From: Saccharothrix violaceirubra
Lineage (GTDB): Bacteria; Actinomycetota; Actinomycetes; Mycobacteriales; Pseudonocardiaceae
Direction: 5' to 3'
NCBI RefSeq assembly: GCF_014203755.1
Contig: NZ_JACHJS010000001.1
Coordinates: 4,278,001 to 4,342,000, forward strand
DNA: 64,000 bases
In this document: positions 19,632-40,122 of the stretch, in pieces
Layout of the letters: each line of letters starts with the position of its first letter
Position numbering within the stretch: position 1 is the first letter of the stretch
Translations under genes and position numbers: made by a program
Notes under the pieces: model-generated
What the model saw: only the letters and a program-made list of their open reading frames with translations
The model's database searches: none
Told to the model about the DNA's origin: nothing

Positions 19632-20780
19632 ATGGACGTCGACGCCCTGGAACGCCTGATCGAGGCCGCGGGCGGCGGTGAACGCCGGCTCGCGGCCGTG
19701 ACCGACGAGTTCGGCCTGGCCGGACTCGCACCGCTGCTCGCCGGGGAGATCGCCTTTCGCGCGACGACGGCGGCCCGGCCCGGCGGCGGGAACGTGGCAC
19801 TCGGCGTACGGCACCGGGACCGGACGGAACGATTCGTCCTGACCGTCGCGGCGGACGGCCGCGTCACCGCCGAGGCCGGCACCACCGACGACCCCGCGCT
19901 GAGCCTCGACTACGACCTGCACGACCTCGTCCGCCTGCTGTTCGGCCCGACCCGGCCCCGGGCGACCGGCCACTTCGCCGCCGAGTTCCTCCCGCCGCCG
20001 CAGCCCGGCCACAGCCGGGGTCTCCAGCCGCCGGACCCGATGCGGCTCTACGGCGCGCTCCAGACCGGCGGTGCGATCGCGGCCGGGCTGTCCCGCCACC
20101 ACCCCGACCTCGCCGAGCTGTGCCGCGCGTACGGCACGGACAAGTGGGGCGGCGTCCACTGGTTCGCGGACGTGTACGAACGCCACCTGCGCGAGTTCCG
20201 CGACGTGCCGCTGCGGGTGCTGGAGATCGGCGTCGGCGGCTACGCGCACCCCTCGTACGGCGGCGAGTCGCTGCGGGTGTGGAAGCGCTACTTCCACCGG
20301 GGACTGGTCTTCGGCGTCGACGTGTTCGACAAGTCCGGTGTGGACGAACCCCGCATCGTCACCGCGGTCGTCGACCAGTCCGATCCGGACGCCCTGGTCG
20401 CGCTCGACGAGCGGTACGGCCCGTTCGACATCGTCATCGACGACGGCAGCCACGTCAACGCGCACGTCCGCACCGCGCTGGACGTCCTCTTCCCGCGCCT
20501 GCGCCCGGGTGGCCTCTACGTGATCGAGGACCTGTGGACCAGCTACTGCGCGGGCTACGGCGGCGACGAGGACGGCCCCGCCGGCGACGGCACCTCGATC
20601 GGTCTGCTCAAGCGGGTCGCCGAGGGCATCCAGTACCGGCAGCGGCCCGGCGCGGGTGATCCGACGTACCTCGAACGCCACGTCGTCGGCCTGCACGTCT
20701 ACCACAACATCGCGTTCCTGGAGAAAGGCGTCAACGACGAGGGCGGTGTGCCGGCATGGGTCCCGCGTCGGCCGCTGTGA
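19632..20780 (+). CDS. MycE-like sugar O-methyltransferase
   Basis: A 382-residue protein with an N-terminal auxiliary region (residues 1-150) and a C-terminal SAM-dependent methyltransferase. The block YGTDKWGGVHWFADVYERHL, then VLEIGVGGYAHP, and FDIVIDDGSHVNAHV with a metal-binding acidic site, closely follows MycE, the mycinamicin VI 2''-O-methyltransferase, in order and length. MycE-type enzymes methylate a sugar hydroxyl on a finished glycoside with Mg2+. Its place beside a glycosyltransferase and in one cluster with a TylF/MycF relative argues for methylation of an attached sugar. The ATG follows GGGGAG by six bases. Confidence 0.88.
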   Translation: MDVDALERLIEAAGGGERRLAAVTDEFGLAGLAPLLAGEIAFRATTAARPGGGNVALGVRHRDRTERFVLTVAADGRVTAEAGTTDDPALSLDYDLHDLVRLLFGPTRPRATGHFAAEFLPPPQPGHSRGLQPPDPMRLYGALQTGGAIAAGLSRHHPDLAELCRAYGTDKWGGVHWFADVYERHLREFRDVPLRVLEIGVGGYAHPSYGGESLRVWKRYFHRGLVFGVDVFDKSGVDEPRIVTAVVDQSDPDALVALDERYGPFDIVIDDGSHVNAHVRTALDVLFPRLRPGGLYVIEDLWTSYCAGYGGDEDGPAGDGTSIGLLKRVAEGIQYRQRPGAGDPTYLERHVVGLHVYHNIAFLEKGVNDEGGVPAWVPRRPL

Positions 20781-21988
20781 GCCGGATCGGGCTCGCCGCG
20801 ATCGGGTCGCGCGGCGACGTCGAACCGCTGCTCGTCCTCGGTGCGGCGCTGCACGACCGCGGTCACGACGTGCTGTTCGCGTCGTCGGAGAACATGCGCG
20901 ACGCGGCGGAGAAGGCCGGGCTGCGGTTCCACCCGATCACCCCGGCCACCCCCGACGACGTGCTCGCCGACCCGGAGTTCCGCGCGCTGCTGCGGCGCAC
21001 GACCTCACCGGGCCGCATCGCACGGGCGATGCCCCGGCCCACCGTCGAACAGCGCCGGTCGACGCTGGCGGAACTCGTCGCCGCGACTGCCGACCTCGAC
21101 GTGGTCGTGCACACCCCGCACACCCGTGCGGCGGTCTGGGCCGGCCCGGCACCCGCGCGCTGGTGCACGGCCGCCCTGTGGCCGGTAACGCCGACGAAAT
21201 CCGCGCCGGCGTTCGGTTTTCCCGCGCTCGGGCCGTTCAACCGGACGACCTACCGCCTTGTCGCAGCGGGTGAGTGGCGGTTCTTCCGCGAGGCCGTCGC
21301 CGCGGTGCGCGCCGACGCGGGCCTGCCGCCGCTGTCACGTCCGCCCGGCCCGCCTGTCGGGCACCACGTGCTGCACCCGTTCAGCCGGGCGGTGTTCCCG
21401 GTGCCGGGCGACTGGCCGGACACGGTCCACGTCACCGGCCACTGGTTCGGCCCGGGCACCGGGCCCGACCCGGACCTGGCGGCGTTCGTGGCCGGCGGGA
21501 CGCCGCCGGTGGTCGCGACGTTCGGCAGCACCTGGGTCGTCGACCCGGACCGCGCCCTGGAAGCGGCTCTCGCCGCCACGCGGCGGGCACGTCGACGGCT
21601 TGTGGTCGTCGGCGGACCCGAGACCTCGCTCCCGGACGAGGTGCTGCGGGTGACCGACGCGGACTTCGGGTGGCTGTTCCCGCGCGCGGCGGCCGTGGTG
21701 CACCACGGCGGACAGGGCACGACGGCCGCGGCGTTGCGGGCAGGCGTGCCGCAGGTCGTGGTGCCGGGCTTCGCCGACCAGCCGTACTGGTCACGGCGGA
21801 TCGCCGGGCTGGGCGTCGCGGCGGCCCCGATCCCGTTGCCGGAGTTGACCGCCGACCGCCTCGGCACGGCGGTGGCGCAGGTCGTGTCCGATCCCGGTTT
21901 CCGGACCCGCGCCGAGGCGCTGGCCGGTGCGGTACGCGCGGAACCCGGGGTCGAGGCGGCGTGCCGCGTGGTGGAGGGCCTGTCCTGA
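20777..21988 (+). CDS. Glycosyltransferase, GT1 (antibiotic/macrolide) family
   Basis: A 403-residue GT-B glycosyltransferase. The N-terminal acceptor domain starts RIGLAAIGSRGDVEP. The C-terminal nucleotide-sugar site has HHGGQGTTAAALRAGVPQVV followed by FADQPYW, as in vancomycin-type and related antibiotic glycosyltransferases. It should transfer an NDP-sugar to a hydroxyl, perhaps the Tyr or an oxidised Ile of the thiopeptide. The GTG at 20777 overlaps the methyltransferase stop (GTGA); an ATG at 20756 in the same frame is an alternative. No NDP-sugar biosynthesis genes are in the window, so the donor must come from elsewhere in the genome. Confidence 0.9.
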   Translation: MSRIGLAAIGSRGDVEPLLVLGAALHDRGHDVLFASSENMRDAAEKAGLRFHPITPATPDDVLADPEFRALLRRTTSPGRIARAMPRPTVEQRRSTLAELVAATADLDVVVHTPHTRAAVWAGPAPARWCTAALWPVTPTKSAPAFGFPALGPFNRTTYRLVAAGEWRFFREAVAAVRADAGLPPLSRPPGPPVGHHVLHPFSRAVFPVPGDWPDTVHVTGHWFGPGTGPDPDLAAFVAGGTPPVVATFGSTWVVDPDRALEAALAATRRARRRLVVVGGPETSLPDEVLRVTDADFGWLFPRAAAVVHHGGQGTTAAALRAGVPQVVVPGFADQPYWSRRIAGLGVAAAPIPLPELTADRLGTAVAQVVSDPGFRTRAEALAGAVRAEPGVEAACRVVEGLS

Positions 21989-22016
21989 GTTCGTCGGCGT
22001 ATCGGAAAGGAGGAAC

Positions 22017-23150
22017 GTGCGTACCGAAGTGGATCGTCCGCCGTCGACCGCGACCGGGCCGGACGCGTTGATCCGGTGGCTCACGGACCGGCGCGACCGG
22101 TCACCGGTGTGGCGCGACGAACGCGGTGTCGTGCACGTCTTCGGCTACGACGAGGTGCGGACCGTGCTGCACGACTGGGCCGCGTTCTCGTCGGACCGCA
22201 GTGCGCTCATGCCCGGCGAGGACCGGTTGGCGAGCGGCAACCTGACCATGATGGACCCGCCGGAACACCGCGCGCTGCGGGCGGCGGTCGGCCGGGTGTT
22301 CACGCCCCGCGTGGTGGCGACGCTGCGCGGGCGGATCACCGCCGTGGCCGAGGGCCTGCTGGCCGACGTGCCCGACGACCGGTACGACCTGGTCGAACAC
22401 CTGGCCCACCCGCTGCCCGTGATCGTCGTCGCCGAACTGCTCGGCGTGCCGGTCGCCGACCGCGGGTTGTTCCGGGACTGGTCGGCCGGGTTCGGCCAGG
22501 GCAGAGCGGAGTCCGTGACCGCGTTGCACGACTACCTGCTGGCACACACGCGTGCCCGTCGCGCGGCGCCGGGGGACGACCTGATCAGCCGCCTGCTCGA
22601 CGCCGGGGTCGACGGCCGGCCGCTGTCCGACGAGCGGATCGCCGCCCTGGCCGGTCTGCTCCTGCTGGCCGGGCACCTGACCACGACCATGCTGCTCACC
22701 AGTGCCGTCGAGGTGCTGCTCGACCGGCCGGACGTGTGGGCGGCCCTGCGCCGCGACCCCGCCGCGGTACCGGCCGCGATCACCGAGGTGCTGCGGCTGC
22801 GACCGCCGTTCACCCAGGTCAGCCGGATCACCACGGGCGAGGTGCGGCTGGCCGGCACGACGTTGCCCACCGGGACGCTGGTCGTCGCGTGGGTCCTGTC
22901 GGCCAACCGCGACGACCGCGTGTTCCCCGATCCCGACCGCTTCGACGTGGACCGGCCCGACCGGCAGGTGGCGTTCGGGCACGGCATCCACTTCTGCCTC
23001 GGGGCGCCGCTGGCCCGACTGGAGGCCGAGGTCGCGATCCGCCTGCTGCTGGCCCGGTACCGGGAACTGTCCGGGCCGCACGAACCCGTCGCCTACTACG
23101 AGGCACCGGTGTTCGGCGCCCGCCGGCTTGTCGTGGCGGGGCACCCGTGA
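22017..23150 (+). CDS. Thiopeptide-tailoring cytochrome P450
   Basis: A 377-residue P450. The heme loop FGHGIHFCLG places Cys327 on the iron; ExxR appears as TEVLRLR. The I-helix reads AGHLTT, with Leu at the acidic position of the usual AGxE/D-TT. The start GTG at 22017 has AAAGGAGG just upstream. Its stop overlaps the YcaO-1 start (GTGA). Related clusters use a P450 on core residue 8 (beta-hydroxylation of Phe in GE2270, conversion of Ile to methyl-hydroxyproline in GE37468). Residue 8 here is Ile, so this is its most likely substrate. Confidence 0.92.
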   Translation: MRTEVDRPPSTATGPDALIRWLTDRRDRSPVWRDERGVVHVFGYDEVRTVLHDWAAFSSDRSALMPGEDRLASGNLTMMDPPEHRALRAAVGRVFTPRVVATLRGRITAVAEGLLADVPDDRYDLVEHLAHPLPVIVVAELLGVPVADRGLFRDWSAGFGQGRAESVTALHDYLLAHTRARRAAPGDDLISRLLDAGVDGRPLSDERIAALAGLLLLAGHLTTTMLLTSAVEVLLDRPDVWAALRRDPAAVPAAITEVLRLRPPFTQVSRITTGEVRLAGTTLPTGTLVVAWVLSANRDDRVFPDPDRFDVDRPDRQVAFGHGIHFCLGAPLARLEAEVAIRLLLARYRELSGPHEPVAYYEAPVFGARRLVVAGHP

Positions 23151-24898
23151 CCGGCCTGCCCGTGCGGGTGTCGGCCGGGGTGGTCCGGATCGGACCGGTG
23201 GGCTGCCCGGAGTGCTTCGCGACCCGCCGCCGCCGGATGACCGGCCGGGACCAGGCGGACGTTCCCGACTCGCCCCTGCTGACCGAGTCGGTGCGCGTGC
23301 TCGTCGCCGCGCTGGCCGACCACGTCGCGCGGGATTCGGTGCTGGAACTCGACCTGGCCGACCTGTCGGTGCGCCGTCGGCGGTTCCTGCCCGACCCCAC
23401 GTGCGAGGCGTGCGGCGACCTGCCGCCGGACCGCCCCGGACCGTTGGCGATCACGGGCGCGCACCCCAAACGCGGTCCCGACACGCACCGGTCGCGATCC
23501 GCGGTCGAGACGTTGCCCCGGCTCCTCTCGGTGTACGTGGACGACGAGACCGGTGTCGTCCGCGCGGTGAACCCCGGTGCGGTGGGGCCGTTCGTCGTCG
23601 CGGGCGCGCCCGTGCCGCTGCGGCCGACCGGTGCGTTCGAACCGGGGTTCGGCCGGTCGCCCGGGTACCGGGCGAGCGAGGCGACGGCCGTGCTGGAGGC
23701 GCTGGAGCGGTACGGCGGTGTGACACCGGGTGGACGACGGACCGTCGTGCGCGGGTCATTCGCCGAACTGGCCGGGCACGCGCTCGACCCGCGCACGTTG
23801 GGCACGCACCCGCCGGAAAGCCATGCGCTGCCGGACTTCCCGTACCGGCCGTTCGCCGAGGACGCCGTGTGCGACTGGGTGTGGGGCCACTCGCTGGTCC
23901 GCGACGAACCCGTGCTGGTTCCCGAGCGGTACGCCTACTACAGCACCACGCCGGGCGACGACCGGCCGTTCGTGTGGGAGATGGGCAACGGGTGCGCGTT
24001 GGGCTCGGGGTTCGCGGAAGCCGTGCTGCACGGGCTGTTCGAGGTCGTGGAGCGGGACGCGTTCCTGCTCACCTGGTACGCCCGCCTGCCGGTACCTCGA
24101 CTCGACCTGCCGGACGGTTCGCCGGCCGCGTTGCGCTCGGCCGCGATCACCGCCGCGACCGGGCACGACGTGCTGCTGTTCGACACGACGCCCGAGTACG
24201 GCATCCCGGCGGTGTGGGCGATGGCCGTGCACCCGGACGGCGAACCGGCGGTGGTGTGCGCGGGCGGTGCGGGACCGACGCCCGCGCACGCGGCCGTCGC
24301 CGCCTTGGACGAACTCGGGCCGATCGCGGTGGCGTTGAGCGCGCGGTTCGCGGGACGGCCCGGTCCACCGACCGCGGATCCGGGACCGACCGGACCTGAC
24401 ACAGCGGGACCGGACACGGCAGGACCAAGCGCAGCGGGACCAAGCGCAGCGAGTCCGGACGGCTTCGCCGATCCGGCGTTGGCCACCGATCCCGACCTCG
24501 TGCGGGGCATGGCCGACCACTGCGCGCTGTCCGGCCTGCGCGCGGTACTGCCGCGCTTCGACTTCCTGCTCGACGACGAACGGGAGCACCGGCCGCTGAC
24601 CTCGGCCGGACCGTTCAAGGCACCGGATCTCGGCACCGACCTGGCCGAGGCGGTCCGCCGACTCGCCGAGGCCGGACTCGACGTCGTCGTGGTCGACCAG
24701 ACCACGCCGGAGCACCGGGCCGCCGACCTGGTGTGCGTGAAGGTCGTCGTCCCCGGCGCGGTGCCGATGACGTTCGGGCACCGCAATCGCCGGGTCGAAG
24801 GGCTGCCGAGGTTGCTGGAAATCCCCCGCGCCCTCGGCTACGCCGACCACGTCCTGTCGGTCGACGAACTGAACCCGCACCCCCATCCCTTCCCGTGA
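23147..24898 (+). CDS. YcaO cyclodehydratase 1 (shorter copy)
   Basis: A 583-residue azoline-forming YcaO protein. The N-terminus has two CxxC pairs (CPEC near residue 20, CEAC near 87) of a zinc site. The YcaO domain carries the ATP/Mg2+ motifs AVLEALERYGG and EAVLHGLFEVVERDAF, then FGHRNRR, and ends in the PxPxP-type tail NPHPHPFP. It should activate backbone amides with ATP to turn Cys into thiazolines. Compared with the second copy it lacks about 60 N-terminal residues and holds an Ala/Gly/Pro/Thr-rich repeat insert at about residues 405-440. It is coupled to the P450 by a GTGA overlap. Confidence 0.93.
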   Translation: MTGLPVRVSAGVVRIGPVGCPECFATRRRRMTGRDQADVPDSPLLTESVRVLVAALADHVARDSVLELDLADLSVRRRRFLPDPTCEACGDLPPDRPGPLAITGAHPKRGPDTHRSRSAVETLPRLLSVYVDDETGVVRAVNPGAVGPFVVAGAPVPLRPTGAFEPGFGRSPGYRASEATAVLEALERYGGVTPGGRRTVVRGSFAELAGHALDPRTLGTHPPESHALPDFPYRPFAEDAVCDWVWGHSLVRDEPVLVPERYAYYSTTPGDDRPFVWEMGNGCALGSGFAEAVLHGLFEVVERDAFLLTWYARLPVPRLDLPDGSPAALRSAAITAATGHDVLLFDTTPEYGIPAVWAMAVHPDGEPAVVCAGGAGPTPAHAAVAALDELGPIAVALSARFAGRPGPPTADPGPTGPDTAGPDTAGPSAAGPSAASPDGFADPALATDPDLVRGMADHCALSGLRAVLPRFDFLLDDEREHRPLTSAGPFKAPDLGTDLAEAVRRLAEAGLDVVVVDQTTPEHRAADLVCVKVVVPGAVPMTFGHRNRRVEGLPRLLEIPRALGYADHVLSVDELNPHPHPFP

Positions 24899-24910: not shown

Positions 24911-27328
24911 GTGTACCGCACCGAACCCCTGGTCGTGATCAGGTTCGCCGGCCTGCCCGCCACGCTTCCGGTGGCGTTGCGCGCGACGTCGACGGTCGCG
25001 TGCGTCGACTCCTACCTGGACGTGCTGGAGACCGGACGGGCGCTCGCCGCGGAACTGCACGACGTGATCGGCCGGTCCGCGGGCACGGACCGGGCGAGGT
25101 TGGTGGCGCTGCGGCGGGCGTTGCACGGTGGTCGGGCGCCGGGGCGTCGGGCGTGGCCGGCCCCGGTCGACGACGACCTCGCCGCGCGAATACACGCCTG
25201 GTGCGCGCACGACCTGCCCGGCCTCCGCGCCGGCATCGCCGCCACGCTCGCGGGCGACCTCGTGTCCGAGACGGCCGTGCTGCGCACCGCCCTGACCGAC
25301 GAGGTGTTCCGGCATTCGCTCAGGCAGGCCAGTCCCGTGCTCGCGGACGAGGCCGACAAGTGGCTCGCCGACCCAGGTCGGACGCCGCGCCGGCGCACCT
25401 TGATCGGCTTGGCACGCTACGTGCTGCGCGCCGCGACGAAGACCAGCCCGTTCAGCGGCTTCGCGACGATCCGCCTCGCGGGATGGCGGCCGGACGGCCC
25501 GCTCCTCACCGTCCCGGACGTGCCGAGCCGGTTCGTGCAGGAGGTGGACGCCGGCCTGGTCCGCTCGATCTCGACGGCGCTCCACCGGCGGGTGCGCCTC
25601 AACCCGTCCGTCACGGTCGCGTCGGGGCACCTGCTGCACGCCGCATCGGGCCCGGTCGCGACCTTGCCCGCCACGCCCGCCGTCCAGGCCGTGCTCGCCC
25701 TGCTGACACCGGACTCCCCGGAGCTCGAACGGGCCGACGTGGTCGCGTGGCTCGCCGGACGGGCCCAGGTCGACGTGGCGCGTGCCGACCTGTTCGTCAC
25801 CGGGCTCGAACGGGCCGGGGTGGTCGAGGTCGTGGCGGCCGTGCCGGAACAGGCGGTGCGACCGTTCGCCGAGTTGGCCGGGCGCGGCGGTCCGGCCGGC
25901 CTGTCACAGGTCCAGCGGCACGTCGACCGCGCCTCGCCCGACACCGCCGACGTCCTGCGCGAGGTCTGCGCCGACGTCGGTGTCCCCGTACCCGACCGCG
26001 CCGCGATCCGACGGCACGGCGTGCATGAGACCCGGGTCTCGGCGGGCGAACCGGCGTGGTGCGGCCACGCGGCTTGGCGATCGGCACTGGACGATCTCGA
26101 CACCGTCCGCGTCCTTTTAGGACTGTACGACCCGGCGCTGCCGTATCGGCTCGCGCTCGGCACCGAGGTCGGACGGCTCTTCGGTCCGGGCGCACGAGTG
26201 CCGCTCCTGGTAGTGCGCAAGGCACTCGACACCTCAGGTCCACCCCTCGCCGAGGTGTTCCACCCCGACTTCCTGTCCCGCGCCGACCCGTTGCGCGGCC
26301 ACGACGACCCCCGACTGGCCCGACTTCGGGAGCTACGCGCGGAGACGACCCGGCGACTGGTCGACGGGTCGGTCGACGTCGGCGCCGACTGGCCGGACTG
26401 GGTCCAGCCGCCGCCCGCGATGACCGCGTACATCCAACGCACGGCGACCGGCGTGGTGCTCAACGCCGCGCACGGCGGCACGCGCGGCCGCACGCGGTGG
26501 GAACGGCTGGCCCGGCAGGCGGGTGCGTCGATACCGACCGACGACACGCGCACCGAGGTCGACGGCACGCCGGAGTGCACCCGCGGGACGACCGCGCACG
26601 CCGAGGTCGTCGAGACCGCGGTGTTCGGCGGGACGCTGGACCTGCGGTCGCCGGCCCCGGGCCGGGAGATCGTCTTCCCCGGCGCGACGGGCACCGCACC
26701 ACCGGCCGCACGCATACCCGTCGGTGCGCTGGAGGTCCGCCACGACCCGGAGCGGGACCTGGTCGACCTCGTCGAACGCGGCACCGACCGGCCGTTGCGT
26801 CCCGAGTACACCGGAATGACCTCCGACGCCCTGCTGCCGCCCCTGGCCCAACTGGTCGTGTGCGGCTTCGGACGCACCTACCTGACCCATCCGACGCTGC
26901 CTGCCGTCGACCCGCCCCCACCACCCGGCCCGGGGGTGGTCGCGCTGCCCCGGGTCGACGTCGGCTCGGTGACGCTGGCTCGTGCGCGGTGGCTCGCGCC
27001 GCCGGACTCCCCCGGCCCCCGACCACCCGGGACGACCGACGCGGAGCGGTTCGTGGCGCTGCGCGCGTGGAGACGCGCGCACGGCGTGCCCGCACGGTGT
27101 TTCGTCCGCCGGGCGGCGCTCGGTGGCAGCCGGGCCGAAATCGCTTTCGACAAATCCCACAAGCCGCTGTACGTCGACTTCGACTCGGCCATCTCGATGT
27201 CCGTTCTCGACCACTTCCTGGCTGCCGGTGAAGGTCCGGTCGAATTCGTCGCCATGTGGCCCGAGGTGTCGGGGGCGGAACCGGGCGGATTCGTCGCCGA
27301 GTATGTCGTCGAGATCGGTGACCACTGA
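24911..27328 (+). CDS. LanB-type dehydratase 1 (tRNA-Glu-dependent Ser glutamylation)
   Basis: An 805-residue LanB N-terminal-domain protein, the length of thiopeptide glutamylating enzymes such as TbtB. The conserved TKTSPFSGF block lies near residue 180, ERLARQAG-like and HKPLYVDFDSA segments lie later, and it ends with the strand FVAEYVVEIGD. It should transfer glutamate from charged tRNA-Glu to Ser in the precursor; elimination is done by a separate protein. Codon 403 is TTA (26117-26119), suggesting bldA control. GGAGG precedes the GTG start. It directly precedes the precursor gene. Confidence 0.92.
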   Translation: MYRTEPLVVIRFAGLPATLPVALRATSTVACVDSYLDVLETGRALAAELHDVIGRSAGTDRARLVALRRALHGGRAPGRRAWPAPVDDDLAARIHAWCAHDLPGLRAGIAATLAGDLVSETAVLRTALTDEVFRHSLRQASPVLADEADKWLADPGRTPRRRTLIGLARYVLRAATKTSPFSGFATIRLAGWRPDGPLLTVPDVPSRFVQEVDAGLVRSISTALHRRVRLNPSVTVASGHLLHAASGPVATLPATPAVQAVLALLTPDSPELERADVVAWLAGRAQVDVARADLFVTGLERAGVVEVVAAVPEQAVRPFAELAGRGGPAGLSQVQRHVDRASPDTADVLREVCADVGVPVPDRAAIRRHGVHETRVSAGEPAWCGHAAWRSALDDLDTVRVLLGLYDPALPYRLALGTEVGRLFGPGARVPLLVVRKALDTSGPPLAEVFHPDFLSRADPLRGHDDPRLARLRELRAETTRRLVDGSVDVGADWPDWVQPPPAMTAYIQRTATGVVLNAAHGGTRGRTRWERLARQAGASIPTDDTRTEVDGTPECTRGTTAHAEVVETAVFGGTLDLRSPAPGREIVFPGATGTAPPAARIPVGALEVRHDPERDLVDLVERGTDRPLRPEYTGMTSDALLPPLAQLVVCGFGRTYLTHPTLPAVDPPPPPGPGVVALPRVDVGSVTLARARWLAPPDSPGPRPPGTTDAERFVALRAWRRAHGVPARCFVRRAALGGSRAEIAFDKSHKPLYVDFDSAISMSVLDHFLAAGEGPVEFVAMWPEVSGAEPGGFVAEYVVEIGDH

Positions 27329-31763: not shown

Positions 31764-32806
31764 CGCCGCACGCACTGCACATCGCCCACCACGCCCCGGA
31801 TTGCGACGACCTGCTGCTCGACGCCGTCCGACCGGTCCTGGAGTCCGTGCCCGGCGGGTACTTCCTGCGCCACTGGCAACGCGGGCCGCACCTGCGGGTG
31901 ATCACCCCGGAGCCGGTGCCGGACGACGACGTCCGCCGCCTGGCCGACCACCTGGCCGCGCACCCGTCGACGACCGTGCTCGACCAGGACGCGCTGCTGC
32001 CGGCGCACCGGAGGCTGGCGGCGGCCGAGCAGGTCTCCGGGCCGCTCACGCCGTTCTACCCGGACAACACCGTGCGCCGGGCCGACCACGACGACCGGTC
32101 CGCGGTGCTCGGCGCGGCGGCGGACCTCGTGACGGCCGCGCACGTCGCGACGACCCCGGTGCTGTTCGACGTGCTGACCGACGTCCGGGCGGGCGGCTCA
32201 CGGCTCGGCATCGCGCTCGACCTCGTGCTGGCGACCGCGCACGCCTACGCCGAGGGCGGCATCGCGGGCGGTTTCGTGTCGTTCCGGTCGCACGCCGAGG
32301 CGTTCCTGGCCGACGGCGACCGCGAAGCGGTACGACGGCGCTGGGACGGCGAGTACGCACGACGCCGCGAAGCCCTGCGCGACCGGCTCGACGCCGTAAC
32401 GTCTACTGTGGACTGCGAGGCCGCCGTGCCGCACGTGCGCCGCTGGCTGGCCGCCCTCGACCCGGTCCGCGACCGGGCCGGGGAACTGCTCGCCACCGGC
32501 GAACTGGCCTTCGACCGCGTGCGCGGCGCCGCGACCAGTGAGTTCCACCGCACGCTCGACACGAACGAGCGGTGGCACGCCGAGGTGGCGCCCTCGGTCG
32601 CGTTCGGCACGTACCGGGTGCTGCTGAACTGCGCCTACCTCCAACTCACCCGACTGGGCATCCGGCCCGTCGAGCGGTTCGCCCTGTGCCACCTCGCGGC
32701 CAACGCCGTCGAGGAACGCGAGGGTGTCCGCGCGCTCGACCTGGTGCGGGACGACCCCACACCCGTGAACCACCTGGCCACCAACGACTTGGGGGGACGA
32801 CCATGA
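31760..32806 (+). CDS. Thiopeptide [4+2] pyridine synthase (TbtD-like)
   Basis: A 348-residue protein of the thiopeptide-type bacteriocin biosynthesis family. The pattern GGYFLRHWQRGPHLRV near the N-terminus, TPFYPDNTVRRADH, and C-terminal NCAYLQLTRLGI followed by FALCHLAANAVEE, fits pyridine synthases such as TbtD/PbtD. It should bind the leader, join the two dehydroalanines (from Ser1 and Ser11) and expel the leader as a carboxamide, forming the macrocycle. It overlaps the SagB-type gene by ATGA. Confidence 0.9.
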   Translation: MTPHALHIAHHAPDCDDLLLDAVRPVLESVPGGYFLRHWQRGPHLRVITPEPVPDDDVRRLADHLAAHPSTTVLDQDALLPAHRRLAAAEQVSGPLTPFYPDNTVRRADHDDRSAVLGAAADLVTAAHVATTPVLFDVLTDVRAGGSRLGIALDLVLATAHAYAEGGIAGGFVSFRSHAEAFLADGDREAVRRRWDGEYARRREALRDRLDAVTSTVDCEAAVPHVRRWLAALDPVRDRAGELLATGELAFDRVRGAATSEFHRTLDTNERWHAEVAPSVAFGTYRVLLNCAYLQLTRLGIRPVERFALCHLAANAVEEREGVRALDLVRDDPTPVNHLATNDLGGRP

Positions 32807-34194
32807 CCGACATCGCGGTCGCGGCGGACGTGGGCGAGCTGTTGTCGCTGCGGCCCGGCGTCTACAGCGCGATCGGCCGGGACGGCGGTGTCGCGCTGCT
32901 CGCGTGGCCCAACGCCGACCGGCTCGGCGAACTCGACGAAGACCTGCACGCGGTCCTGCGCGCCCTGGCCGCCGGTCCGACCGGCACCGGTGCGCTCCGC
33001 GCCCTCGCCGACCCGGAACGGGTCGACGCCCTGCTCGACCGCCTGCGGCATGGCGGGTGGCTGGCCGTGACGGTGGTGTGGCGCGATCGACCGCTCTACA
33101 CGCTGGTGCCGCTCACGACACCGCCGCCGATGCCCGGACACGTGCCCGCGGACCCCGTGCTGTCCCGGTTCGCGGTGCTGCACCGGGTCGACGGCGAGAC
33201 GGTGGCAGAATCGCCGCGCGCGTGGTGCGACACGCGGGTCCACGACGCGGACGTGCTGGCGCTGCTGGCGGGCCTGCCCGCCGGCGGCCTGCCCGAGCGG
33301 GTCGTGCGCGACCTGCACTGGGCCGGCGTCCTCGTGCCGGACACGGGCGCCGAGGACGAGGAGTTCGCGCTGCGCCAGTGGAGTCCGCACGAGCTGTGGT
33401 TCCACGACCGCAGCCGGCTGGGCCGGCGCGGCTACCTCGGCGACCGGTTCGGCGGCACGTTCTGGGCGCGCGACCGGTTCCCGGCGCCGCCCGCCGTCCC
33501 CGAGCCGTTCGCCGGTCCGGTCGTACCGCTGGCGGTGCCGGACCTGCCCGCACGACGCCGGGAGGACCCGACGCTCACCGCCGTGCTGGAGGACCGCGAG
33601 ACCGTCCGCGAGCAGGACGACGCGCACCCGCTGACCCTCGACGGACTCGGCGAGTTCCTGTACCGGTGCGCGCGCACCCGGTTGACCCGGGTCGGCGACG
33701 ACGGCCAGGAGTACGCGAGCCGCCCGTACCCCTCCGGCGGCTCTGTCTACGAACTGGAGCTGTACCCCCTGGTACGCCTGGTGGACGGGCTGGAACCGGG
33801 GCTGTACCACTACGACTCGCACGGCCACCGGCTGGAGTTCGTGCGTGCCGACGCCGATCCGGCCGTGCGCCGGATGTCCCGGGTCGCCGCACTGTCCACT
33901 GTGGCCGAACGGCCGCCGCAGGTGCTCGTCGGCGTCTCGGCGCGGATCGGGCGGCTGATGTGGAAGTACGAGGCCATGCCGTACTCGTTGGCGCTCAAGC
34001 ACGTCGGCGTGCTCTACCAGACGATGTACTGCGTCGCGACGGCGATGGGCCTGGCACCGTGCGCGCTCGGCGGCGGTGATTCCCGGGCGTTCGCCGAGGC
34101 GACCGGACGCGATCCGCTCGTCGAGTGCGCGGTGGGCGAGTTCGCGCTGGGCAGCCGTGTGCGCCAGGTCCCGGTGTGGGAGTTGGCCCGATGA
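32803..34194 (+). CDS. SagB-type FMN dehydrogenase (azoline oxidase)
   Basis: A 463-residue protein with an N-terminal helical region (1-250) and a C-terminal nitroreductase-like SagB domain. Key segments are RPYPSGGSVYELELYPLV, the LYHYDSHGHRLEFV strand, and MWKYEAMPYSLALKHVGVLYQTMYCVATAMGLAPCALGG, which are FMN-binding and lid elements. It should oxidise the thiazolines made by the YcaO enzymes to thiazoles. It overlaps both neighbours by ATGA, in the order usual for thiopeptide clusters. Confidence 0.93.
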   Translation: MTDIAVAADVGELLSLRPGVYSAIGRDGGVALLAWPNADRLGELDEDLHAVLRALAAGPTGTGALRALADPERVDALLDRLRHGGWLAVTVVWRDRPLYTLVPLTTPPPMPGHVPADPVLSRFAVLHRVDGETVAESPRAWCDTRVHDADVLALLAGLPAGGLPERVVRDLHWAGVLVPDTGAEDEEFALRQWSPHELWFHDRSRLGRRGYLGDRFGGTFWARDRFPAPPAVPEPFAGPVVPLAVPDLPARRREDPTLTAVLEDRETVREQDDAHPLTLDGLGEFLYRCARTRLTRVGDDGQEYASRPYPSGGSVYELELYPLVRLVDGLEPGLYHYDSHGHRLEFVRADADPAVRRMSRVAALSTVAERPPQVLVGVSARIGRLMWKYEAMPYSLALKHVGVLYQTMYCVATAMGLAPCALGGGDSRAFAEATGRDPLVECAVGEFALGSRVRQVPVWELAR

Positions 34195-35933
34195 GCGCAC
34201 GACTGCTGCTGCGTCCGGACGCGCGCTGGACCGCGACGTCCGACGGCGTCCAGGTGCTCGCGCCGCACGGCGAGGTGTTCCTGCCCGGTACGACCACCGG
34301 CGAGTGGCTGGCCAGGCTGGCTCCGGTGCTCGACGGCCGGTTCACGCTCGACCGGATCGCCGACGGGCTGCCCGAGGCACGCCGTGGCGCCGTGCGTGCC
34401 CTCCTGACGGGTCTGGTGCGGCGTGGTGTCGTGCGAGAGGTACGCGACGAACTTCCGCACGGACTCACCGACGACGAGCTGTCCGCCCACGCCGCGCAGA
34501 TCTCCTACCTGGGCTACCACCTGGACTCGGCGGCGCACCGGTTCGAGCGGTACCGGCGGATGCCGGTCGCGGTGGTCGGCGGCGGCGCGCTCGTCGACGT
34601 CCTGCGGGAAGCCTTGCGGCGCACGGGTTGTGCGGTGGTCGACGCCGAGCCGGAGGACGCCGGACTCGTGGTGCAGGTGTGCGACGGGACGACCGGTGGC
34701 GCCGTCGCCGGGCTGTGCGCGCACCGCGAGGTGCCGCTGGCCCAGGTGGTCGTGGCCGACGGGGAGGTCTGGTGGCACCCGGCCTTCGTGCCCGGACGCG
34801 ACGGCCACGGCTGGCACGAGGCCCGACGACGGCTGGTCCCCGCCGAGCCGACGGCCGGTGCCGGCCTGGACGACACCACGTCGACCGTGGTCGCCACGCA
34901 GGTGGCGCACGACCTGTTCCGGTACGCCACGGGTCTGCGCGGACCCGACCCGGTGCCGCGCCTGGTGCGCTTCGACACCGGCACGCTCGCCTCGCACGAC
35001 CACCGCTACCTGCCGACCGGCGGCGCGGACCGGGCCGACGTGCGCGACCGGGTGCGGGCTCTGGCCGAGCTGCCCGGTCTGGACGCCGAGGAGTTCTCGA
35101 GGCGGGCCGTCGTGCTGGTCGACCCCAGGCTCGGGGTGCTGGACGAGGTCGACGAGGGCGACCTGGCGCAACTGCCGCTGCACGTGACGAGGACAAGGGT
35201 CTCGGCACCGGACGGCTCACGGCCCGTCGTCACGGGCGCGGGCATCGACTTCGAGACCGCCCGCTACCGGGCGGTGCTCACGGGCGTGGCGCGCTACGCC
35301 GCACTGGCCGCGCCCGCCGGTCCGCTCGCCGCGGTCGACGCGGTGGACGGGTCCGCCCGCGAGGTCGCACCGCCCGTCGGGCACCGCGGCGTCGCCGCCG
35401 GGTACGACTGGCCCGGTGCCGTGTCGGCCGGTGCCCTGGACCACTGCCTGCACCTGACGGTGGCCACCGCCCGTGCGGCGGTCGCGCCGTTCGACGGCGT
35501 CGACCTCGACGCGGTCGGCGGGGACCCGGTGCTCGACCACGCGGTGGCGATGTTGCACGCGCTGGGCGAGCCCGTCACCGTGCACGACGTCACCGGGCCG
35601 CTCGGCGTCCCGACGTTCGGCGCCGCGTTGTCCGGCCGTACGGTCGCGTACGGCTCGGGTGTCGACCCGACGGCCGCGCTGCGCGAGTGCCTGCACCGGA
35701 CGCTGCTGTCCTGGCAGTCACGGACGACGGGCCAACCGGTCTACGCGCCGCCGAACGTGCCCGACCTGCCGGAGTCGCTGCGCGGCCCGGCGCGTCCACC
35801 CCGGGTCGCGGACCCGGTCGACCCGCTCGCCGCGCTGGTCGCCGCCGGGCATCGGCCGCTCCTCGTCCCGCTCGATCACGACGGTGCGGTGCACCGGGTC
35901 GTGCCCTTCGTCGTCAGGGTGGTGTTGACGTGA
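34191..35933 (+). CDS. Ocin-ThiF-like leader-binding partner of the cyclodehydratase
   Basis: A 580-residue protein placed between SagB and YcaO-2, the position of TbtF/PbtF. The first 80 residues resemble a RiPP recognition element (winged-helix with FLPGTTTGEWLARLAPVLDG). A Rossmann-like ThiF segment follows (MPVAVVGGGALVDVLREALRRTG), without the catalytic ThiF cysteine motif. The C-terminus has YcaO-like traces (TGVARYAALAAP and DPTAALRECLHR). It should bind the leader and present the core to the YcaO enzymes. It overlaps YcaO-2 by GTGA. Confidence 0.87.
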   Translation: MSARLLLRPDARWTATSDGVQVLAPHGEVFLPGTTTGEWLARLAPVLDGRFTLDRIADGLPEARRGAVRALLTGLVRRGVVREVRDELPHGLTDDELSAHAAQISYLGYHLDSAAHRFERYRRMPVAVVGGGALVDVLREALRRTGCAVVDAEPEDAGLVVQVCDGTTGGAVAGLCAHREVPLAQVVVADGEVWWHPAFVPGRDGHGWHEARRRLVPAEPTAGAGLDDTTSTVVATQVAHDLFRYATGLRGPDPVPRLVRFDTGTLASHDHRYLPTGGADRADVRDRVRALAELPGLDAEEFSRRAVVLVDPRLGVLDEVDEGDLAQLPLHVTRTRVSAPDGSRPVVTGAGIDFETARYRAVLTGVARYAALAAPAGPLAAVDAVDGSAREVAPPVGHRGVAAGYDWPGAVSAGALDHCLHLTVATARAAVAPFDGVDLDAVGGDPVLDHAVAMLHALGEPVTVHDVTGPLGVPTFGAALSGRTVAYGSGVDPTAALRECLHRTLLSWQSRTTGQPVYAPPNVPDLPESLRGPARPPRVADPVDPLAALVAAGHRPLLVPLDHDGAVHRVVPFVVRVVLT

Positions 35934-37747
35934 CACAGTCCACTGTGGACTTCACGATCGCGCTCGAAGCGCTCGTCCACGCGGTCGCGCGGGCCGCCGA
36001 CGGCACCGATGTCGCGGTGCCCGTGTCGCTCGACCGGCACGAGCCCGACGGCCGCACCACGCCGGTGCTGCCGGTCCTGGTGGGGTCCGGGCGGGTCGAC
36101 GTCGGCCCGCTCGTCCGGCCGGGGACGCCGGGCTGCCTGGAGTGCCTGCGGCTGCGCACCTCCCGGGCCAAGGCCGACCACGGCCGGGTCGAGGCGGTTC
36201 GCGACGCGCACCCCGCGCCGGAGGAGCACCCGCTGCTGCCCGCGCCGCTGGTGGCCCTGGTCGCGGAACTCGTCGCGGCCGAGGCACACGGCCGGACGGC
36301 ACGCACCCACGAGGCGGTCCTGCGCGTCGACGTCGCCGGACTGCGCGTGACCCGGCACCGCTTCCTGCCCGAACCGCTGTGCCCGGTGTGCGGCGGACTG
36401 CCCGACGACACCGAGGACGCCGCCCGGTTCACGGCACGACCGCGGCCCAAAGCGCGGCCGGACACCTACCGGGTCCGCCCGGTGACCGACGAACTGGACT
36501 CGTTGCTCGACCTGTACGTGGACGCGGAAACCGGCCTGGTGCGGGAGATGAAACGCGGCACGCAGGGCGGCCTGGTGGTGGCCGGCGCCATGATGCCGAT
36601 CCGGGTGCCCGGCGCGGTGGAACCCGGCGTCGGCCGGTCGCGCGGCTACCGGACCAGCGCGGTGACCGGGTTGCTGGAGGCGTTGGAGCGCTACGGCGGC
36701 GTCGAGCCCGGAGGGCGGCGCACGGTCGTGCGCGGCACGTACGCCGGGCTGGCCAACCGGGCGCTGGACCCGCGCACCCTGGGCCTGCACCCGGTGGACC
36801 GGCCGGCGGGCGCGGACTTCCGCCCGTTCCACCCCGAGGCACCCGCCCGGTGGGTGTGGGGCCACTCGTTCCGCCGCGGCGGCCCGGTCCTCGTACCCGA
36901 GTCGTTCGCCTACTACTACCTGCGCCACGACGACCCCGACGACCGGCCGTTCGCCTACGAGATCTCCAACGGCTGCGCGCTGGGCTCGTGCCCGGAGGAG
37001 GCCGTGCTCTACGGCCTGCTGGAGGCAGTGGAGCGGGACGCGTTCCTGCTCGCCTGGTACAACCGGATCCCGCTGCCGCTGCTGGACGTCTCGGGCGCGA
37101 CGGACCGGATGATCCCGGTGCAGGTCGCGGCGATCACCGCCGACACCGGGTACGAGGTGCGGCTCTACGACAGCACCGCGGAGCACGGCATCCCGAGCGT
37201 GTGGGCGATGGCCGTGCGGCCGGACCGGTTCGGCGACGACCGGCCGATGCTGGTGTGCGCGGCGGGCGCGCACCTGACGCTGGAACGTGCGATCGTGGGC
37301 GCGCTGAGCGAACTCGGGCCGCTGCTGGCCGACTTCGTCGACCGCTTCCCCGACGAACGCGACCGCGCACGGCTCATGGTCGACGACCCCGACCTCGTGC
37401 GCACCATGCACGACCACTCGACGCTCTACGGCACGGACGAGGCGTTCGAGCGCCTGGCGTTCCTCGACCGGACGCCGAACCGGCGCGCGCTGCCCGTGGC
37501 AGACCCGCGGCCGACGACCGACCTCGCCGACGACCTGCGTGGCGTGGTCGACCGCGTGCTCGCGGCCGGACTCGACGTCGTCGTGGTCGACCAGACGACA
37601 CCCGAGCACCGCGCGGGCGGCTTCTCCTGCGTCAAGGTCCTCGTCCCCGGCGCGCTCCCGATGACCTTCGGCCACCGCAACCGGCGGATCGACGGCCTGT
37701 CCCGGGTCGTCGCCGACCCGAACCCCCACCCGCACCCGTTCCCGTGA
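35930..37747 (+). CDS. YcaO cyclodehydratase 2 (full-length copy)
   Basis: A 605-residue YcaO protein. Zinc-type pairs CLEC (near residue 68) and CPVC (near 151), ATP/Mg2+ motifs GLLEALERYGG and EAVLYGLLEAVERDAF, then FGHRNRR, and the C-terminal NPHPHPFP are all intact. It keeps the N-terminal segment missing from copy 1 and lacks that copy's repeat insert. Its coupling to the Ocin-ThiF gene makes it the probable main cyclodehydratase. The two copies share long near-identical blocks, so they are paralogues from one duplication. Confidence 0.94.
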   Translation: MTQSTVDFTIALEALVHAVARAADGTDVAVPVSLDRHEPDGRTTPVLPVLVGSGRVDVGPLVRPGTPGCLECLRLRTSRAKADHGRVEAVRDAHPAPEEHPLLPAPLVALVAELVAAEAHGRTARTHEAVLRVDVAGLRVTRHRFLPEPLCPVCGGLPDDTEDAARFTARPRPKARPDTYRVRPVTDELDSLLDLYVDAETGLVREMKRGTQGGLVVAGAMMPIRVPGAVEPGVGRSRGYRTSAVTGLLEALERYGGVEPGGRRTVVRGTYAGLANRALDPRTLGLHPVDRPAGADFRPFHPEAPARWVWGHSFRRGGPVLVPESFAYYYLRHDDPDDRPFAYEISNGCALGSCPEEAVLYGLLEAVERDAFLLAWYNRIPLPLLDVSGATDRMIPVQVAAITADTGYEVRLYDSTAEHGIPSVWAMAVRPDRFGDDRPMLVCAAGAHLTLERAIVGALSELGPLLADFVDRFPDERDRARLMVDDPDLVRTMHDHSTLYGTDEAFERLAFLDRTPNRRALPVADPRPTTDLADDLRGVVDRVLAAGLDVVVVDQTTPEHRAGGFSCVKVLVPGALPMTFGHRNRRIDGLSRVVADPNPHPHPFP

Positions 37748-37757
37748 GGAGGAGACC

Positions 37758-38126
37758 GTGCACCTCGTGATCGTCGCGTTCGACCTGAAGGAGTCGGGCG
37801 TCGACTTCCCCGAACTGCGGGCCTGGGTCCGCGACCGGGCCGCCGCGGACTACGCGGCCCTGCCCGGAATGCGTTTCAAAGCCTGGTTCTCCGACGAGCG
37901 CAAGCGCCTGTGGGGAGCGGTCTACCTGGTCGACTCGGCCGACGCGTTCGACCCGGAACGGCTGCCGCGCCTGCCCGACGGCCGCACCGGTCCGGTCGGC
38001 ACCCGCCCGACCTCGATCACCTGGTTCGACCTGGAGGCGTTCGTCGCCGGCCCCGACGGGCTCGACGGACTGGACGAGTTGCGCGCGGCCGGGCTGAGCC
38101 TGCGCGCGGAGAGGACCGGAGCATGA
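37758..38126 (+). CDS. Small YdhR/NosA-like alpha-beta barrel protein
   Basis: A 122-residue protein with the pattern of dimeric ferredoxin-like (YdhR) proteins: a PGMRFKAWFSDERKRLWGAVYLVDSADAF core and a final ITWFDLEAFV strand. In thiopeptide pathways the small protein NosA of similar fold removes a C-terminal dehydroalanine to leave the amide. The core here ends SPSA, so an amide-forming role after Ser15 dehydration is attractive, but I cannot show homology to NosA. It follows YcaO-2 by 10 bp with AGGAGGAG-like sequence, and overlaps the TylF gene. Confidence 0.7.
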   Translation: MHLVIVAFDLKESGVDFPELRAWVRDRAAADYAALPGMRFKAWFSDERKRLWGAVYLVDSADAFDPERLPRLPDGRTGPVGTRPTSITWFDLEAFVAGPDGLDGLDELRAAGLSLRAERTGA

Positions 38127-38923
38127 CGACGGCAGTGCGCACTGAGGCCGGCGAGGCGTACCTCGACCTGCTCAAGCGGTGCCTGACCCGGCTGTCCGAC
38201 GACGGGTCGCCGTTCCTGGCCGGACCCGCGAACGCGGCGGCGACCCCCGAGCAGCTCCTCCAGGGTGTGTTCGCCCACCAGGACGCGGACACCATGATCG
38301 GCTGGGCCCGACTGGACAACGCCCGGCACTGCCTGGAGACCGCACTGGTCGAGGGCGTGCCGGGCGACGTGGTGGAGACCGGGACGTGGCGGGGTGGCTG
38401 CTGCGCGTACCTGCGCGCGGTCCTCGCCGTGCACGGCGTGGAAGACCGGGACGTGTGGTTGGCCGACTCGTTCCAGGGCTTCCCCGAGCCGGACGCCGAG
38501 CGGTACCCGGAGGACTACGTCTACGCCACGCCCGAGGTGCGGCGCTTCCTCGACGGGCTCGACTACCCGATCGCGGTGGCCGTGGACGAGGTCCGCGCGC
38601 GGTTCGCCCGCTACGGCCTGCTCGACGAGCACGTCAGATTCCTGCCGGGCTTCTTCGCCGACACGCTGCCGACCGCGCCGATCGGGCGGATCGCCGTGCT
38701 GCGCCTGGACGGGGACTTCTACCAGTCCACCATCGAAGCACTGGAACACCTCTACGACCGCCTGTCGCCGGGCGGGTTCTGCATCGTCGACGACTACGCG
38801 TTGCGGAGCTGCCAACGTGCCGTCGACGACTTCCGCACCGCACGGGGGATCACCACACCGATCGAGCGCATCGACTGGACCGGCGCGTTCTGGCGCAAGG
38901 ACGACGAATCGGGGAACCGCTGA
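38123..38923 (+). CDS. TylF/MycF-like O-methyltransferase
   Basis: A 266-residue macrocin-type methyltransferase. It has the TylF pattern: MIGWARLDNARHCLETALVEGVPGDVVETGTWRGG for SAM binding, the loop VWLADSFQGFPEPD, and LRLDGDFYQSTIEALEHLYDRLSPGG with metal-binding acidic residues. TylF and MycF methylate the 3-hydroxyl of a sugar already methylated by TylE/MycE. Having both a MycE-like and a TylF-like enzyme in this cluster suggests a doubly O-methylated sugar. An alternative is O-methylation of a hydroxymethyl-thiazole or other peptide hydroxyl. It overlaps the next gene as TGATG. Confidence 0.92.
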   Translation: MTTAVRTEAGEAYLDLLKRCLTRLSDDGSPFLAGPANAAATPEQLLQGVFAHQDADTMIGWARLDNARHCLETALVEGVPGDVVETGTWRGGCCAYLRAVLAVHGVEDRDVWLADSFQGFPEPDAERYPEDYVYATPEVRRFLDGLDYPIAVAVDEVRARFARYGLLDEHVRFLPGFFADTLPTAPIGRIAVLRLDGDFYQSTIEALEHLYDRLSPGGFCIVDDYALRSCQRAVDDFRTARGITTPIERIDWTGAFWRKDDESGNR

Positions 38924-40122
38924 TGACCAAGCCGCTGCTCGTCTACGCCAACGTGCCGTTCTGCAACTCCAAGTGCCACTTCTGCGACTGGGTCGTGCAG
39001 GTGCCGACCCGCGAGCTGCGGCTGACGCCGGAGACGCCGGGCCGGACGCGGTACCTCGACGCCGTGGCCGAGCAGGTCGCGGCACACGCGCCCGGCCTGC
39101 GCGCGGACGGGTACGAGCCGCGCATCGTCTACTGGGGCGGCGGTACCGCGAGCATCCTGGACATCGACGAGATCCGCCGCCTGCACGGGGCGATCACCGC
39201 CGAACTCGACCTGTCGGGCGTGGTCGAGGCGACGATCGAAGGCAGCCCCGAATCGTTGAGCCGGGCCAAGCTGGACGTGCTGCGGTCGTTGGGCTTCAAC
39301 CGGATCAGCATCGGCGTGCAGTCCTTCGCCGACGACCGGCTGCGCATGATCGGCCGGTCGCACTCGGCGGACGAGGCCGTGCGCGCGGTCGGCGAGGCGG
39401 CCGAGGCCGGCTTCGACAACATCAACATCGACCTGATCGTCGGCTTCCCGGACGAGGACCTGGCCGAGGTGGAGGACACGGTGCGACGCGCGCTCACGTT
39501 GCCGGTCAACCACTTCTCCGTCTACCCGTACCGGGCGAGCCCCGGGACGGTGCTGCGCAAGCAGGTCGACCGGGGCAACACGAGCCTGAACGTCGAACGG
39601 CAACTGCGGGCGTACCGGCTCGCCGCCGACCTGCTGACCGGCGCGGGGCACCCGGAGTACGCGATGTCGTACTTCGGCGGCCCGCACTGCCTGTCCGACG
39701 AGGCGTACTACCAGCTCAAGATGGACTGGATCGGGTTCGGCGCCGGGGCCAACTCCCTGGTGCGCCAACGGTACCTGGCCACGACGAAGGGCCGGCTCGC
39801 CCGGTTCAACGACAACCCGACCGCGTTCGACGTCGACGTGCCGGCCGGGAGCGACAACCTGGTGAAGCACTTCCTGGCGCAGGCGCTCACCACCCGCGAG
39901 GGCGTGGACGCGCGGCTGTTCCAGGAACGCACGGGGGTGTCCCTGCGACGTGCGTGCGAACGACCCGATGTCCACGCGTACCTGGAACGGATGGCGAAGT
40001 ACGGCGACCTGGTGGTCGACGGCACGGGCATCCGCCTCACGCCGGAGACGATGGCGCGCACCTACGTGGCGTTGAGCTGGATCGACCTGCCGACGCCGGA
40101 GGTGATCGCGGACACCGCGTGA
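38923..40122 (+). CDS. Class C radical SAM methyltransferase (HemN-like)
   Basis: A 399-residue HemN-like radical SAM protein. The cluster cysteines are C14, C18 and C21 (CNSKCHFC), followed by YWGGGTAS, a second-SAM region NINIDLIVGFP, and the C-terminal HemN domain FGAGANSLV. In GE2270-type clusters such class C enzymes methylate C5 of thiazole rings. Only one is present here, so one or two thiazole C-methyls are predicted. It is the last gene of the operon, followed by a strong hairpin. Confidence 0.92.
   Translation: MTKPLLVYANVPFCNSKCHFCDWVVQVPTRELRLTPETPGRTRYLDAVAEQVAAHAPGLRADGYEPRIVYWGGGTASILDIDEIRRLHGAITAELDLSGVVEATIEGSPESLSRAKLDVLRSLGFNRISIGVQSFADDRLRMIGRSHSADEAVRAVGEAAEAGFDNINIDLIVGFPDEDLAEVEDTVRRALTLPVNHFSVYPYRASPGTVLRKQVDRGNTSLNVERQLRAYRLAADLLTGAGHPEYAMSYFGGPHCLSDEAYYQLKMDWIGFGAGANSLVRQRYLATTKGRLARFNDNPTAFDVDVPAGSDNLVKHFLAQALTTREGVDARLFQERTGVSLRRACERPDVHAYLERMAKYGDLVVDGTGIRLTPETMARTYVALSWIDLPTPEVIADTA

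Follow-up and report, generated by a model that had tools for sequence, protein, structure and literature searches.

The closest described systems are the gene clusters for the thiopeptides GE2270, thiomuracin and GE37468. As described in PMC3943966, the GE2270 (pbt) cluster of P. rosea consists of 17 genes, pbtR, G1, B1, O, X, M1, M2, A-H, M3 and M4, with a tuf gene shortly downstream. No glycosylated 29-membered thiopeptide was found in the available portions of the open-licence literature searched, including PMC11406533, PMC3917276, PMC7136475, PMC11285071, PMC3454323 and PMC10373908. We analyzed a 64,000-nucleotide stretch of the Saccharothrix violaceirubra genome (the window; positions 4,278,001 to 4,342,000 of contig NZ_JACHJS010000001.1), which carries a thiopeptide gene cluster at window positions 18826-40122. 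The cluster follows the GE2270 gene order, its precursor combines a thiomuracin ring with a GE2270 tail, and it probably directs the synthesis of a 29-membered EF-Tu-binding thiopeptide predicted to bear an O-methylated 6-deoxysugar. The fuller proposal, that this would be the first glycosylated EF-Tu-type thiopeptide, a ring/tail hybrid with di-O-methyl-6-deoxyhexose on a P450-made ring alcohol, from a producer in which the single EF-Tu belongs by ancestry to the GE2270-insensitive kind, is in our estimate evenly poised.

The window is part of a single 7,354,386-base contig. All cluster genes lie on the + strand and form one intact co-directional run of about 21 kb, in which most junctions overlap (several by 4 bases) or almost touch. 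An initial annotation of this DNA had delimited the cluster to 19632-40122, which is correct for the run, but the TetR gene upstream belongs to the cluster too. Start codons were chosen from ribosome-binding sites and overlaps, and several genes start downstream of the start of the longest open reading frame (ORF), a detail absent from that annotation. The genes, with functions assigned by homology, are in order:

18826..19518, + strand: TetR-family regulator (PbtR-like, R); Pfam TetR_N, 35-38% identity to R in 5 GE2270-type loci
19632..20780, + strand: MycE-like sugar O-methyltransferase (OMT), 382 amino acids (aa); Pfam MycE_N, PDB 8ia9 at 437.6 bits and 3ssm at 335.3 bits
20756..21988, + strand: GT1 glycosyltransferase (GT), 410 aa; EryCIII-like_C, Glyco_transf_28 and UDPGT, with GtfA, GtfB and sterol-GT relatives
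22017..23150, + strand: cytochrome P450 of the GE37468/thiomuracin type, 377 aa; Pfam p450, PDB 5vws at 378.1 bits, tree
23147..24898, + strand: second cyclodehydratase G1, a YcaO protein with a leader-binding domain; TIGR03604 and TIGR03882, PbtG1 clade (100/97)
24911..27328, + strand: second LanB-type dehydratase B1; Lant_dehydr_N, PbtB1 clade (100/99)
27515..27691, + strand: precursor peptide A, 58 aa, core SCNCFCYICCSCSPSA; NF033399 at 90.5 bits, translation
27770..30619, + strand: LanB-type Ser dehydratase B; Lant_dehydr_N, aligns with B of GE2270 and thiomuracin loci
30616..31524, + strand: elimination-domain protein C; Lant_dehydr_C and TIGR03891 inside the frame 28933-31524
31760..32806, + strand: pyridine synthase D; NF045556 at 372.9 bits (cut-off 325)
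32803..34194, + strand: SagB-type azoline dehydrogenase E; TIGR03605 at 152.4 bits (cut-off 78.4)
34191..35933, + strand: Ocin-ThiF-like leader-binding partner F; TIGR03693 at 75.6 bits, below the cut-off of 561.9, and 41-46% identity to F of four GE2270 loci
35930..37747, + strand: main cyclodehydratase G, a YcaO protein; TIGR03604 at 311.7 bits, TIGR03882 at 132.9 bits
37758..38126, + strand: PbtH-like protein H; 66-75% identity to H of four GE2270 loci and a weak, sub-cut-off match to ydhR
38123..38923, + strand: TylF-like sugar OMT, 266 aa; Pfam TylF at 284 bits, PDB 4cdz/4ce0, 5i10, 4xvz and 2wk1
38923..40122, + strand: class C radical S-adenosylmethionine (SAM) C-methyltransferase of the TbtI/PbtM3 type, 399 aa; Radical_SAM and HemN_C, 64-65% identity to the radical SAM enzymes of two thiomuracin-type loci

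The series-d (EF-Tu-type) assignment made in the initial annotation is confirmed by profile searches, since the precursor passes the curated cut-off of the thiomuracin/GE37468 precursor family (29 bits for NF033399) and D passes that of the pyridine synthases. The pyridine synthase, the split LanB dehydratase and the YcaO/ThiF/SagB azole set are all present; the two YcaO proteins score 325.8 and 311.7 bits (cut-off 219.25), and F, although under its cut-off, aligns with F of the GE2270 loci. The inventory had thus been right in reporting a full thiopeptide set, but it overlooked the second YcaO protein, the second LanB-type dehydratase, the GE2270-specific genes and the hybrid nature of the core.

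A precursor search of a large protein set returned 42 proteins at E <= 0.001. Among these, the exact core was present only in the window's own entry (P0009, with 2 member sequences from 2 contigs) and in a metagenomic precursor, P0010, that is 79% identical. Cores of the form SCNCFCYICCSCSSA were seen in Thermobispora and Nonomuraea entries, and SCNCVCGxCCSCSPSA cores in GE2270-type entries, so that the ring SCNCFCYICCSCS goes with thiomuracin-type cores and the tail SPSA with GE2270-type cores. Because each part matches the entries of its own family, the window core is a thiomuracin ring joined to a GE2270 tail. Asn3 of the core (SCN...) is invariant in a 22-row alignment of 21 of the 42 precursor matches plus the window; the role of this conserved Asn is treated in PMC3917276. 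Based on the spacing of Ser1 and Ser11, which equals that of GE2270, we infer a 29-membered ring and, by analogy, EF-Tu as the target. The precursor family also holds the tail variants CSCSTPSSA, CSCSAPSA, CSCSVPV and CSCTPSSSA (P0013, P0014, P0029 and P0039, respectively), which we take to be unlike those of known products.

In phylogenetic trees, G1 and B1 fell inside the clades of PbtG1 and PbtB1, respectively. H presumably acts in the formation of a C-terminal amide. The P450 grouped (96/97) with P450s adjoining three GE37468-type clusters, away from PbtO; its heme motif, FGHGIHFCLG, is intact. Its best relative in the PDB, 5vws, is named only 'Cytochrome P450' in the database, and we take it to be TbtJ1 of thiomuracin. 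GetJ, as we assume, acts on Ile8. An EryCII-like role for the P450, as a GT activator without heme, was considered and rejected (159.7 bits against a cut-off of 343, heme cysteine present). The radical SAM enzyme was nearest, also in the tree, to those of the two thiomuracin-type loci, and PMC11285071 describes TbtI and PbtM3 as enzymes of thiazole C-methylation.

The initial annotation had also placed a GT1 glycosyltransferase and two sugar-type OMTs in the same overlapping gene run, and this is borne out by the MycE_N, TylF and GT family matches and by the close, co-directional packing. The frames of all three genes are intact. Of the PDB matches of the MycE-like protein, 8ia9 is named 'Demethylmacrocin O-methyltransferase', and 3ssm is presumably MycE. 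For the TylF-like protein, 4cdz/4ce0 and 5i10 (252-255 bits), which we take to be the spinosyn rhamnosyl O-methyltransferase, were followed by the mycinamicin III 3''-O-methyltransferase (4xvz, 244-249 bits) and NovP (2wk1, 202 bits). The closest database relatives of the GT were 55-58% identical, with one of the five from a metagenome-assembled genome (MAG). This GT homolog (P0053) and a 71% identical MycE homolog (P0087) both come from an uncultured 'Pseudonocardiaceae bacterium' MAG, and for each the longest contig measures 20,906 bases; a second GT and MycE pair, P0054 and P0088, likewise shares a longest contig of 5,908 bases. The equal sizes suggest that the homologs lie on one contig; the MycE-GT pair probably travels together, and since such MAG homologs exist, this strain is probably not alone in having the sugar genes. 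MycE relatives at E <= 1e-90 were present in 8 of 390 family genomes (own included); the best other was 55% identical, and none near 71% was found among the 390.

To place the sugar genes among related clusters, 27 precursor loci were collected by a precursor-alignment scan of named species genomes and compared with 17 window proteins by tblastn (E <= 1e-4), with flanks of at most 10 kb per side and shorter stretches for L085, L090 and L104. None of the 27 fetched stretches matched the GT, MycE or TylF. The initial annotation had named a database cluster with the same core and gene set as what would refute a new product; the core recurs in the metagenomic P0010, and none of the three sugar genes was matched in the fetched stretches of the named loci. 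TylF-like genes (E <= 1e-20) were present in only 2 of 26 genomes bearing these loci, about 6.7 Mb from the thiopeptide cluster in N. jabiensis and, in Virgisporangium, off the contig of the thiopeptide-type locus L110. The Virgisporangium aurantiacum contig G760:C53 (71,891 bases) holds a TylF relative of 52% identity, and a MycE relative (P0112, 47%) is reported from a contig of equal size; together they perhaps serve another sugar-bearing product, apart from L110. Pyridine synthases over the NF045556 cut-off were found in 4 of 397 genomes of the order and 9 of 394 of the class (the window's own counted in each), and the 13 thiopeptide loci annotated from the 11 other genomes gave no GT, MycE or TylF match. 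A scan of genome contigs with the B protein returned nothing. One genome of the same genus carries two pyridine-synthase-type genes about 17 kb apart (G290:C1:1264596-1283272; L039 and L040), scoring 444 bits, over the cut-off, and 151 bits.

We then turn to self-protection. As the initial annotation had stated, neither an EF-Tu domain nor a transporter domain was matched inside the cluster. Its suggested check for a second tuf gene revealed one EF-Tu in the genome (L002, G000:C1:228434-229621). A dedicated resistant copy was rejected: among the eight best PF00009 loci only L002 is EF-Tu, and the other seven share no more than 32% identity with it over longer stretches. The GE2270A contacts of E. 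coli EF-Tu include G257, R262, V274 and G275 (PMC8183687). The host EF-Tu has S257, K262, A274 and A275 (E. coli numbering) and differs from E. coli at all four. In P. rosea, the EF-Tu gene that follows the cluster on the contig of L084 encodes S, N, A and A, equal to the host at three positions, and PMC4514598 describes P. rosea EF-Tu as GE2270-insensitive. In their main EF-Tu, five Nonomuraea genomes with such clusters have S, N, A and A, and three Streptomyces genomes carrying GE37468-type clusters have G, R, V and G. G257S and G275A are presumably laboratory resistance changes in E. coli. EF-Tu genes of N. jabiensis (G754), N. sediminis (G755) and P. rosea (G750) are located no more than about 6 kb from the fetched thiomuracin- or GE2270-type loci, unlike in the window genome. 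According to PMC12309360, four point differences in the P. rosea EF-Tu are thought important; the same source reports that introducing the P. rosea changes into the Streptomyces coelicolor gene and adding the P. rosea EF-Tu brought no gain in resistance, which counts against a simple protection reading.

Taken together, these data are consistent with the following pathway, in which every step is deduced from homology. F, G and E would convert the six core Cys residues to thiazoles. Dehydration of Ser1 and Ser11 would fall to B and C, and closure of the pyridine, with release of the leader, to D. G1 and B1 together may form a tail oxazoline at Ser13, in keeping with the YcaO-dependent conversion of a tail Ser to oxazoline described in PMC9822014. 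One thiazole would receive a C-methyl group from the radical SAM enzyme, and the GE37468-type P450 would introduce a hydroxyl on a ring side chain, most likely that of Ile8. To this oxygen the GT could next attach a 6-deoxyhexose (most likely L-rhamnose, supplied as housekeeping thymidine diphosphate (TDP)-rhamnose), with the Tyr7 phenol as the alternative site, and the MycE- and TylF-type enzymes may methylate two sugar hydroxyls. H, in a role that we presume, would trim the Ser-Ala end to leave a proline amide. The host would be protected through its only EF-Tu, because that protein already has a changed GE2270 pocket.

Several observations weigh against this reading. In a sample of 60 family genomes, 57 had an EF-Tu at E <= 1e-180; the pocket was S-K/N-A-A in 24 of these (10 with K and 14 with N, own included), G-R-V-G in 32 and A-R-V-G in one (L199). 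Two genomes of the same genus, G083 and G310, have the same EF-Tu residues, and their pyridine-synthase matches stay below the cut-off. Because these two and many family members carry the same residues, the variant is not specific to the cluster: the S-K/N-A-A pocket is a common natural variant that resembles the GE2270-insensitive P. rosea EF-Tu, one of two linked residue sets, and is not a change acquired for the product. The mutated housekeeping EF-Tu proposed in the initial annotation therefore holds as regards a single EF-Tu with four differing contact residues, but not as regards a mutation acquired for this product. On the sugar side, the best PDB match of the GT reaches 107.7 bits, so that its characterized relatives are distant, and its donor and acceptor are not readable from the sequence. 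The TylF and GT genes are 16 kb apart, and the OMTs could in principle act on an alcohol other than that of a sugar. The assignment of the P450 to Ile8 is based on one tree and on the presumed role of GetJ. Finally, deletion of pbtG1 is reported to yield linear precursors (PMC12309360), and pbtG1 has been proposed to control a checkpoint (PMC4514598), so that G1 may do more than form the tail oxazoline.

Among the other explanations, a glycosylated thiopeptide with a sugar other than rhamnose is rather unlikely. Such a sugar might be 6-deoxy-D-allose methylated to D-mycinose, as in tylosin and mycinamicin, or a hexose, for example glucose. In macrolides, the substrate sugar of MycE and TylF/MycF is 6-deoxyallose, two GT relatives (P0062 and P0070) are named 'O-mycaminosyltylonolide 6-deoxyallosyltransferase', and a second RmlB-type gene over the cut-off is located at 707 kb. 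However, no sugar-making gene was matched in the cluster run or in the 20 scanned flank ORFs (with no search aimed at 6-deoxyallose supply genes), and RmlB (516316-517275) and RmlD (517308-518168) genes lie side by side, far from the cluster. According to PMC11406533, the persiathiacin cluster is also without rhamnose genes, which is deemed normal for rhamnosylated products.

It is improbable that the GT and the OMTs are inactive or serve a different pathway, the product being an unglycosylated thiomuracin/GE2270 hybrid. The lack of these genes at all 27 named precursor loci and the distance between the TylF and GT genes fit this explanation, but the three genes have intact frames within a tightly packed co-directional run that extends from the regulator to the radical SAM end, and the MycE-GT pairing probably recurs elsewhere. 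Furthermore, the 20 scanned flank ORFs include just one biosynthetic-type enzyme near the left edge, another P450 at 12899-14125. Finally, that the GT inactivates the thiopeptide inside the cell for removal of the sugar outside, as in the oleandomycin system, is very improbable, since the absence of a resistance gene from the cluster and family matches to the drug-inactivating Rgt (106 bits) and OleI (51.3 bits), far under their cut-offs of 800 and 700, are outweighed by two sugar OMTs in the run that favor permanent decoration, by the lack of a glycosidase match in the run and by the already changed EF-Tu pocket of the host.

For the glycosylated hybrid, we infer the glycosylation itself, the sugar and its attachment site from the gene content, and its mass was modeled. 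As a check, GE2270A (C56H55N15O10S6) gave 1290.2653, against a reported 1290.2663. The expected [M+H]+ values would be 1322.270 for the scaffold, 1336.286 with the C-methyl, 1352.281 with the hydroxyl (aglycone) and 1526.370 for the glycoside with a di-O-methyl-6-deoxyhexose, the last with a neutral loss of 174.089. With one or no O-methyl on the 6-deoxyhexose, the model predicts 1512.355 and 1498.339 (losses of 160.074 and 146.058), and a hexose in its place would give the series 1542.365, 1528.350 and 1514.334. Mycinose and di-O-methylrhamnose give the same loss of 174.089, and a hexose with two methyls would give 190.084.

To the right of the cluster are genes for a SnoaL-like protein, a trypsin-like protein and a PknG-like kinase. 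A PknG relative occurs in 13 of 25 genomes of the same genus (own included). In the three best other genomes the trypsin-like/PknG pair is kept, with no cluster gene within about 15 kb on the cluster side; the cluster is thus absent at that place in these three relatives. In the left flank, beyond an M20 peptidase, a major facilitator superfamily (MFS) transporter (14519-15961, - strand) and the other P450 (12899-14125, + strand) are possible accessories. Between C and D, an 80-aa ORF at 31521-31763 has an ATGA overlap at each end and a good ribosome-binding site; it is Arg/Pro-rich and probably disordered, and its codon-position GC content (0.81/0.70/0.83) is atypical for genes here. Locus L084 (GE2270) leaves no space for a counterpart of this ORF, its matches to C and D being close to each other.

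Thiopeptides are strong antibiotics limited by poor solubility, which sugars are known to raise (PMC11406533). A natural GT with two sugar OMTs that are predicted to act here would offer tools for glycosylating thiomuracin- and GE2270-type rings, and the core is a natural test of whether the ring chemistry of one family is compatible with the tail chemistry of another. The shared pocket also raises the question of whether this EF-Tu variant decides which actinomycetes host EF-Tu thiopeptide clusters.

Compared with known systems, the thiomuracin-type clusters of Nonomuraea jabiensis (L089) and N. sediminis (L090) have the same ring as the window, radical SAM enzymes of 64-65% and P450s of 48-51% identity. 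They have the tail SSA or SA and two P450s, whereas the window has the tail SPSA and one P450 in the run, and their fetched stretches contain no G1, B1, GT or sugar OMTs. The GE37468-type clusters of Streptomyces (L091, L092 and L098), with the core STNCFCYICCSCSSN, have the ring NCFCYICCSCS in common with the window and an adjoining P450 that is sister to the window's, but their fetched stretches likewise contain none of G1/B1, the GT and the sugar OMTs. Persiathiacins, nocathiacin I and philipimycin, thiopeptides of the ribosome-binding, smaller-ring series e, bear sugars. Persiathiacin carries an O-dimethylated L-rhamnose (PMC11406533). Unlike the window, its cluster has the core SCTTCECSCSCSS, an indolic-acid-derived unit, four GTs and 6-deoxysugar genes, as described in the same source; a series-e glycosylated thiopeptide was rejected for the window on the differing core and gene set. 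The GE2270 loci, P. rosea L084 and L085-L088 (L085 ends just after the start of B), are matched by the window in R, G1, B1, a P450, A-H and one radical SAM enzyme, and both share the tail SPSA and a PbtH-like H. Their ring is SCNCVCGFCC (SCNCVCGLCC in L086), in contrast to SCNCFCYICC in the window. The stretch from pbtX to pbtM1 in L084-L088 is matched by no window cluster protein, and the run has only one radical SAM enzyme, with none to correspond to that before pbtA; in this tblastn comparison, pbtX, the Asn N-methyltransferase pbtM1 and the second thiazole methylase had no counterpart in the run. P. rosea has an EF-Tu gene close to the cluster, unlike the window genome. The P450 precedes G1 in the window and lies outside the PbtO clade, whereas it follows B1 in the GE2270 loci, and to the GE2270 gene set the window adds the MycE-like OMT, the GT and the TylF-like OMT.

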